64,000 nt of DNA from Bacillota bacterium (lineage in GTDB: Bacteria > Bacillota_I > Bacilli_A > RF39 > UBA660): positions 31,004-95,003 of the forward strand of contig SVAM01000004.1 of the NCBI GenBank assembly GCA_015059425.1, read 5' to 3'. The notes under the pieces are model-generated. The model was given only the letters and a program-made list of their open reading frames with translations, ran no database searches and had not been told where the DNA came from. A program made the position numbers and the translations under genes. How positions within the stretch are numbered: the first letter of the stretch is position 1; each line of letters begins with the position of its first letter. Positions 10,778 through 52,470 of this stretch are shown here, piece by piece.

Positions 10778-11695
10778 ATGCAAGAACAAAAATATTATGA
10801 TGAAATAAAAGATTTAATTGAAACAAAAGAAATAAATGGTAAAGCTAGATATTTAAAAGATAATAAAGACACAATTTTAATTAATTGGAATATAGGAAGA
10901 TTAATTGTTGAAGCTCAAGGTGGAGAACTAAGAGCAAAGTATGGAGATAATTTAATAAAAAAGTGGGCTATAGAATTAGAAGCTAAATATGGAAGTAATT
11001 ATGGAGTCAGAAATTTAAATTTGTATCGTAAGTTTTATATTACTTTTCTAATTGTGCACGCACTGCGTGCACAATTAACATGGACACATTACAAAATAAT
11101 ATTATCTATAAAAAATGAAAGTGAAGGAAATTATTATATAAATCAAGTAATACTTAATAATTTATCAAGTAGAGAATTAATTAGTGAAATCAAAAATAAA
11201 TTTTTTGAGAGATTAAGTTATGCCGATAAAACAAACATTAAACTATTAGAAAATAGTAATGATTTAACTATTAATGACATGATAAAAGATCCTATATTGA
11301 TAAAAAGTAATAACAACATAATAAATGAAAAAGCCTTACACAAATATATAATAGAAATGCTTGAAGAAAGATTTCTAGAATTAGGAACTGGGTTTGCGCT
11401 TATAGGTCATGAATATAAAATACAAATTGAAGGGCACACATATTCTTTAGATTTATTATTTTTTAATTATAAACTTAATTGTTTTATTGTAGTAGAATTA
11501 AAATTAAAAAGTGCAAGTATAAAGGATATAGATCAAATTAAGTTTTACACTAAATTAGTAGATAAAAATTTAAAAGAGAATAATCACAATAATACTATCG
11601 GTTTACTAATAGTAAAGAAAAAAGATAAATATGTTATTGAATATGCTACAGATAGTAATATATATTTAACTAATTATGAGTTAATAAATGTATAA
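10778..11695 (+). CDS. DUF1016/YhcG-like PDDEXK nuclease (copy 1)
   Basis: NWNIGRLIVEAQGGELRAKYG, QLTWTHYKIIL, C-terminal TGFALIGHEYKIQIEGHTYSLDLLFFNYKLNCFIVVELKLKSAS (PD-(D/E)XK-like). Confidence 0.9.
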   Translation: MQEQKYYDEIKDLIETKEINGKARYLKDNKDTILINWNIGRLIVEAQGGELRAKYGDNLIKKWAIELEAKYGSNYGVRNLNLYRKFYITFLIVHALRAQLTWTHYKIILSIKNESEGNYYINQVILNNLSSRELISEIKNKFFERLSYADKTNIKLLENSNDLTINDMIKDPILIKSNNNIINEKALHKYIIEMLEERFLELGTGFALIGHEYKIQIEGHTYSLDLLFFNYKLNCFIVVELKLKSASIKDIDQIKFYTKLVDKNLKENNHNNTIGLLIVKKKDKYVIEYATDSNIYLTNYELINV

Positions 11696-16049: not shown

Positions 16050-16176
16050 AATTTTACTAATTTTAATAAATCTGTTAAGCAGAAATATGAATATTTGCTA
16101 AGCAGATTTTGATGTTTTAGTATAACCAATTTATATAAATCTGTATTTTGACTTTATTTTATAAAACTGTTAGGAT
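16050..16176 (+). promoter_or_regulatory. Promoter with four 23-nt-spaced CAGA-type half-sites (copy 1 of a shared regulatory array)
   Basis: Half-site positions 16057 (CTAA), 16080 (CAGA), 16103 (CAGA), 16126 (CCAA), all 23 nt apart; TCTG at 16140; TTGACT 16148-16153, 17-bp spacer, TAGGAT 16171-16176. Confidence 0.7.
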
Positions 16177-51862: not shown

Positions 51863-51996
51863 AATTTTACAGATATTAATAAATCTGTATAAAAAAACAA
51901 CAGAAATATATAAATTAGCTAAGCAGATTTTAACTTTTTTGTTAGCAGATTCAACAAAATCTGTAATTTGCCTAACTTTATAATTTATGATAATTT
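51863..51996 (+). promoter_or_regulatory. Promoter with CAGA half-site array (copy 3)
   Basis: CAGA at 51870, 51901, 51924, 51946; TCTG at 51884 and 51960 (both +14 from a CAGA); TTGCCT 51968-51973, 17-bp spacer, TAATTT 51991-51996. Confidence 0.7.
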
Positions 51997-52261: not shown

Positions 52262-52470
52262 ATGAAAAGTGATATGCTTGAAGAGACAAGTTTAGAGAAG
52301 GAGTAAATTATTTATCAAAAGTTGAAAATGTTTTTCATTAAGAAATTTAAAAAAATGCGTAAATTTTATAATTTTTATCAATTTGGCAGACAGTGTCTAC
52401 CAAATTAACTTGGACTCATTATTTAGAATTAATGAAATGAAATAAGAAAAATTTAAGATTAATAGATGAA
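52262..52470 (+). pseudogene. Decayed DUF1016 nuclease fragment (copy 3)
   Basis: Out-of-frame pieces IKKFKKMRKFYNFY and WQTVSTKLTWTHYLELMK match DUF1016 region NLxxxRKFY...QLTWTHY of the intact copies; frame shifted and stop-interrupted. Confidence 0.65.

Follow-up and report, generated by a model that had tools for sequence, protein, structure and literature searches.

Palindromes within the coding sequences of DUF1016 genes as probable DNA sites of the proteins encoded by the same genes

A coding palindrome is a general property of the DUF1016 (YhcG) family in Bacteria and Archaea. Its anatomy is fixed (i.e., a CA-N-TG core, a center on codon position 1, and a position usually 18 nt 5' of a conserved Trp codon), while its sequence varies from gene to gene. 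Computational comparison revealed a conserved dyad, a DNA-level constraint, locus specificity, and a residue-base code that links the palindrome to the protein. On this basis, the best overall explanation is probably that the palindrome is a specific double-stranded DNA (dsDNA) site of the protein of its own gene, with autogenous control as the likely role. Considered separately, recognition by the DUF1016 protein of its own coding sequence is very likely, and the chances that repression is the purpose of this recognition appear evenly balanced.

RESULTS

Palindromes in the window and in the rest of the genome

Both intact DUF1016 genes of the window (i.e., the whole 64,000-nt stretch of DNA analyzed; Table 1) scored above the Pfam cut-off for DUF1016_N followed by YhcG_C (E-values for copy 1, 2.5e-28 and 1.3e-32, respectively). 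Copy 1 consists of an N-terminal helical domain and a C-terminal PD-(D/E)XK nuclease domain (Pfam and AF2); D225 and K242 are invariant across 45 aligned DUF1016 members, and the ExK element is visible in the motif VVELK of the window protein. PADLOC lists DUF1016/YhcG proteins as the phage defense candidate PDC-S02.

TABLE 1 Positions of the DUF1016 features in the window
Feature	Position	Strand	Basis or remark
DUF1016/YhcG copy 1, 305 aa	10778..11695	+	Pfam PF17761 and PF06250; PADLOC PDC-S02; AF2 model
Codons of residues 74-87, proposed recognition helix (model based)	10997..11038	+	AF2 helix 77-89; covariation with outer arm
Copy 1 coding palindrome, 29 nt, TAATTGTGCACGCA-C-TGCGTGCACAATTA	11049..11077		Proposed site of the encoded protein
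Codons of residues 102-109 (WTHYKIIL)	11081..11104	+	Thr103 with G at k3, Lys106 with C at k4
Codon of residue 131 (Ser)	11168..11170	+	Second residue covarying with the k3 base
DUF1016 copy 2, 301 aa	16196..17101	+	Pfam
Copy 2 coding palindrome, 17 nt, perfect, TTGGGCCA-G-TGGCCCAA	16464..16480		Fits the code
Decayed DUF1016 copy, imperfect 27-nt palindrome	52380..52406		12/13 pairs, one C.A mismatch

The first-pass annotation of this DNA had described a perfect palindrome in copy 1, and the description is exact (14 of 14 arm pairs around a 1-nt center), as is that of the palindrome in copy 2. The third palindrome that it described is present in the decayed copy but is not perfect. A center of the form CA(C/G)TG had been proposed as common to all three; the core is indeed shared, but its central base may be any base and not C or G only. 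Two further intact DUF1016 genes elsewhere in the genome carry perfect palindromes of their own (GTCACACA-T-TGTGTGAC and GTGTCGCCA-A-TGGCGACAC).

A separate set of related inverted repeats (AAATCTGT...AGCAGATTT; window positions 16068 to 16109 and 51880 to 51970 and locus L003, about 1960 to 2050) sits upstream of three DUF1016 copies (the decayed one, copy 2, and the C15 copy) and possibly represents an associated small element.

The four palindromes of the intact genes are specific to their loci. In a scan covering 1.118 of the 1.148 Mb of the genome, odd palindromes that combine a CANTG core with arms of at least 8 numbered five, and four of these were those of the four intact DUF1016 genes. 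The 17-mers of the four palindromes had no second match at up to 3 mismatches in the 1.118 Mb, each matching its own gene only, and this uniqueness indicates that the palindrome is not a dispersed repeat.

Conservation across the family

The DUF1016 sample comprised same-genus genomes, about 80 contigs across phyla, and one more phylum; the groups covered include Woesearchaeota and ANME archaea, cyanobacteria, Bacteroidetes, Planctomycetes, and spirochaetes. Methanosarcina acetivorans and Bacteroides ihuae, which have a DUF1016 gene, served as positive controls. A total of 231 distinct homologous sites were placed by profile alignment, and same-length segments elsewhere in the same genes served as controls. 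The best palindrome before the conserved Trp codon reached a score of at least 7 at 81% of the 231 sites (4.4% of the controls) and an arm score of at least 9 at 54.5% (1.0% of the controls). In the comparison with codon-shuffled controls that the first-pass annotation had proposed, no more than 2 of 200 synonymous shuffles equaled the palindrome at 70% of the 231 sites. Nearly all odd palindromes were centered on codon position 1 (193 of 195), and 141 of the 195 lay exactly 18 nt before the Trp codon. Some members carry two to four palindromic units, in tandem and in frame.

Homologs without a palindrome had been named in advance as evidence that would count against selection on the dyad. They do occur, in one clade of Bacilli in which the gene is intact (L082-L091, L100, L102, and L103), while about 80% of the 231 homologs have the palindrome. 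The clade has lost the palindrome and thereby provides a natural control. It, too, consists of solitary genes, and no gene context accounts for the loss.

Copy number and arrangement vary. The same-genus genomes (L008-L070) contain up to 25 DUF1016 copies per 1.1- to 1.3-Mb genome, some in head-to-tail tandem arrays with differing palindromes. Where palindromic units are repeated within DUF1016 and ORF6N genes (L207, L215, L216-L219, L222, L225, L230, L232-L234, and L340), the 5'-most unit is usually perfect and the downstream ones are decayed, as if units had been added on one side. On enterobacterial plasmids (L377 and L378), the DUF1016 gene and the end of a site-specific integrase gene overlap, which suggests that the two form an operon. 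Palindrome-pattern scans of viral contigs gave 0 and 1 matches, and DUF1016 itself was found in 1 viral contig and in 15 of 50,697 phage records; thus, the scans revealed no target in phages. With the query used, no match was obtained in E. coli genomes.

Constraint on double-stranded DNA

Arm positions are given as k, the distance from the center base in the left arm. At 48 non-redundant sites, the k3-k9 arms paired at 90%, compared with 32% when arms were swapped between genes (standard deviation, 2.8; maximum, 42% in 2,000 shuffles). Of the 82 sites with exactly two differing arm positions, 34 showed symmetric differences (about 5% expected), and 29 of the 34 were compensatory. The earlier suggestion that palindromy is kept while the sequence diverges, under selection on a coding dyad, is therefore supported, and compensatory covariation between the arms, for which a test had been proposed, is far above chance. 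Third-codon bases matched the opposite arm in 794 of 837 cases (95%), in a test that shares overlapping sequence sets with the arm-swap, base-residue-rule, and independent-contrast tests. The deviations at third-codon positions included 10 of 333 of the G.U type (3.0%) and 20 of 504 of the A.C type (4.0%), so that the arms lack the G-U tolerance expected of a structured RNA helix. Since G-U pairs are not preferred at matched third positions, we place the constraint on dsDNA and not on an mRNA hairpin.

A base-residue code in DUF1016

Since phylogeny confounded the mutual information computed across all columns, the association between palindrome and protein was assessed with independent contrasts and held-out sites. 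In the AF2 model of copy 1 (moderate confidence; pLDDT, 80; pTM, 0.52), the residues encoded by the palindrome (91 to 100) form a low-confidence loop between helices 77-89 and 102-109. In identity-matched triplets (n = 88), residues 74-87 and 102-110 differed more when the palindromes differed (P < 1e-4, sign flips); the signal was weaker at residues 129-140 and absent from the nuclease domain, and restricting the comparison to the 20 triplets with wide separation left a weak helix signal (P = 0.07). A putative helix-turn-helix in the N-terminal domain is assigned from this moderate-confidence model.

Within these regions, individual residues follow individual bases. An A at k3 occurs with Ser103 (62 of 62) and a G with Thr103 (20 of 21), while a C at k3 occurs with Lys or Arg at 131 (34 of 34). 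A C at k4 goes with Arg or Lys at 106 (counts, 32,0/0,56); further rules pair G at k6 with Arg or Lys at 82 and G at k7 with Arg78. Basic residues are aligned with guanine on either strand, as base contacts would predict. Copy 1 fits the code (Arg78 with k7 G, Thr103 with k3 G, Lys106 with k4 C, and Ser131 with k3 G), its helix 74-87 also pairing Leu82 with C at k6, and copy 2 fits as well (Lys131 with k3 C and Ser106 with k4 G).

On a tree built without the covarying columns, the phylogenetically independent contrasts were 15/0, 11/0, 12/0, 8/0, and 19/0 (concordant/discordant), i.e., 65 versus 0 in total, with 11 contrasts showing no residue change. The rules also hold for palindromes displaced to 24 to 150 nt from the Trp codon (18/18, 6/6, and 9/9), although displaced and non-coding copies are fewer than canonical sites. 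With the rules fixed beforehand, 49 held-out sites, mainly from two other phyla but also from plasmids and including displaced sites, confirmed four of the five rules: k4-106 (17,0/0,29), k3-131 (16,0/0,27), k3-103 (12,0/0,10), and k7-78 (17,2/0,27). The k6-82 rule was weak (P = 0.07).

Copies of the palindrome outside the coding site

Some loci carry further copies of their own palindrome. Promoter copies were found at two loci (L136 and L142); the former lies directly after a -10-like TATACT hexamer, and its sequence and that of the intragenic site are the same over 17 nt. Another locus (L017) has three copies upstream and one after the stop codon, and copies after the stop codon were also found at L092, L098, and L099. 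Near-matches at the own locus numbered 31, part of them being tandem units within the site, versus 9 in a swapped control with threefold comparisons. With promoter copies in the minority, most genes show no direct indication of repression.

Coding palindromes in ORF6N and RhuM genes

The other long coding palindromes of the genome led to ORF6N (PF10543) and RhuM (PF13310) genes, in which the cores differ by family. Arm scores of at least 9 were reached at 88% of 32 ORF6N sites (1.8% elsewhere) and at 67% of 12 RhuM sites (0% elsewhere). At the ORF6N sites with a paired k4, one helix residue followed the k4 base without exception, i.e., Gln with A (8 of 8), Glu with G (C on the other strand; 10 of 10), and Arg or Lys with C (G on the other strand; 9 of 9). 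The resulting pairs (Gln-A, Glu-C, and Arg/Lys-G) would be textbook contacts. The ORF6N palindrome encodes a low-confidence loop after two putative helix-turn-helix helices, and most ORF6N genes have no evident nuclease domain. The flanks of ORF6N and RhuM genes showed no enrichment of the own palindrome over swapped controls.

The ORF6N palindromes have the core CAAWTTG right after the helix-turn-helix (L246:8598 and L289:18588 in the same genome as the window; L314-L343), and the RhuM palindromes have cores such as GAAATTC or CCAAAATGG (L243:4561 and L279:18045 in the same genome; L344-L373). A small helix-turn-helix-type open reading frame of this genome (L263:154) also contains a palindrome with 14-bp arms (NRKNQKRRIFFSDEF).

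DISCUSSION

Among the roles that the first-pass annotation had considered, a self-target or operator is strongly favored, because the arm bases covary with the likely DNA-contacting residues of the encoded protein. We infer physical binding, dimerization, and repression as follows. A DUF1016 dimer, suggested by the dyad, would read both arms with helices of the N-terminal domains, with residues 78 and 82 facing the outer arm (k6 to k7) and the inner arm (k3 to k4) being read by residues 103, 106, and 131. Each paralog would have its own orthogonal site, and the recognition residues and the site would thus evolve together within about 200 bp. The bound protein would block transcription of its own gene through an intragenic operator, and at some loci repression may be helped by additional copies located in the promoter or past the stop codon. 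Autogenous control is our first choice on two grounds: the feature is also present in ORF6N genes with no evident nuclease, and some loci have promoter copies. Recombination or diversification, which had also been proposed, may be a consequence of the palindrome.

Self-recognition could instead serve a self-directed nuclease, in which the PD-(D/E)XK domain would cut or nick other copies of the same allele, whether incoming or extra. Its variants (allele exclusion, defense against related elements, or stimulated gene conversion amounting to a drive) would select ever new palindromes. The nuclease domain, whose modeled fold is closest to NucS/EndoMS (2vld) and other DNA endonucleases, is consistent with such a role, as are the listing as a phage defense candidate, the many orthogonal paralogs and tandem arrays per genome, the confinement of each palindrome to its own gene, and the frequency of DUF1016 genes on plasmids. 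However, the feature is shared by ORF6N genes, most of which have no evident nuclease domain, the targets would include the resident gene, and the loci inspected contain no protecting methylase, except for one methyltransferase neighbor (L374). We therefore consider this purpose unlikely. If it were true, ORF6N and RhuM genes would belong, as further branches, to a general class of self-reading genes, in which target and reader would be the same stretch of DNA. Homing was rejected, as a homing target is disrupted by the gene, whereas most members here have an intact site within the gene.

The covariation could also be internal to the protein, with the palindrome-coded loop contacting helices 77-89, 102-109, and 131-139 and the dyad arising by, e.g., hairpin-templated mutation. 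The arm bases of canonical sites do fix the loop peptide (residues 93 to 99, which adjoin the helices in the model), so part of the covariation could have this origin, and template switching can yield symmetric double changes. Yet the displaced palindromes keep the code where the encoded peptide is unlikely to make the same contact, non-coding copies retain the same arms, and the pairs follow Arg/Lys-G, Gln-A, and Glu-C chemistry, which makes a purely internal origin quite improbable.

Three other readings have very little probability. A selfish palindromic element (Rickettsia RPE-like or REP-like) inserting at a tolerant loop would account for the extra tandem units (L215, L230, L234, and L207) and the copies in flanks, but every palindrome of the genome analyzed is unique there, each family has its own core, and the bases track recognition residues; the inserted-element option of the first-pass annotation is thus disfavored and hardly credible. 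Its RNA hairpin option, which could act through pausing, stability, or protein-mRNA autoregulation, fares no better: an inverted repeat in the transcript would pair as RNA and the arms do covary, but with no excess of G-U pairs, a base-residue covariation that fits base contacts in duplex DNA, and a promoter copy directly after a -10-like hexamer, we regard it as very improbable. An operator for another host regulator is scarcely likely: a dyad with a conserved core is operator-like, but its arm bases track the encoded protein's residues across unrelated phyla.

In the open literature, subscription papers being outside the scope of the search, we found no reports of palindromes in DUF1016, ORF6N, or RhuM genes, and the DUF1016/YhcG papers found mention neither a coding palindrome nor a recognition code. 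A coding sequence that doubles as the cognate site of its protein, the two changing together across Bacteria and Archaea, thus appears to be undescribed in that literature. The code is a base-by-base one for a family of unknown function with a candidate phage defense role; it allows the target of any member to be predicted from the gene itself, and the family is a source of many natural protein-DNA pairs that are orthogonal. With a specific DNA substrate now proposed, the function of YhcG/DUF1016 becomes directly testable.

Among known systems, REP sequences are palindromes tied to a DNA-processing protein, the RAYT (a Y1 HUH transposase), and they sometimes flank its gene. The association with a DNA-processing protein is common to both, but the DUF1016 palindromes are undispersed and lie inside the open reading frame, and the enzyme is of the PD-(D/E)XK type, not Y1 HUH. 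Intragenic operators, such as the autogenous second operator of E. coli purR and lacZ O2, are alike in being the dyad site of a DNA-binding protein within a coding sequence, as proposed for DUF1016. They differ in that the DUF1016 site occupies codons of the DNA-binding domain itself, occurs in most of the family in both Bacteria and Archaea, and diversifies along with the recognition residues; for DUF1016, repression is a proposed role.

Nematomorpha mitochondrial genes contain perfect coding inverted repeats of up to 284 bp (PMC6649704). Both are perfect inverted repeats within protein-coding genes, but those of Nematomorpha are much longer, mitochondrial, and without a link to a reading protein. 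Rickettsia palindromic elements (RPE) are repeated sequences of about 100 to 150 nt scattered over unrelated genes (PMC4316617). The four palindromes of the genome analyzed here lack the dispersed related copies that mark RPE and REP sequences. Both RPE and DUF1016 palindromes are palindromic DNA translated in frame inside protein genes; a DUF1016 gene, however, usually carries one short palindrome, unique in its genome and located at one homologous position.
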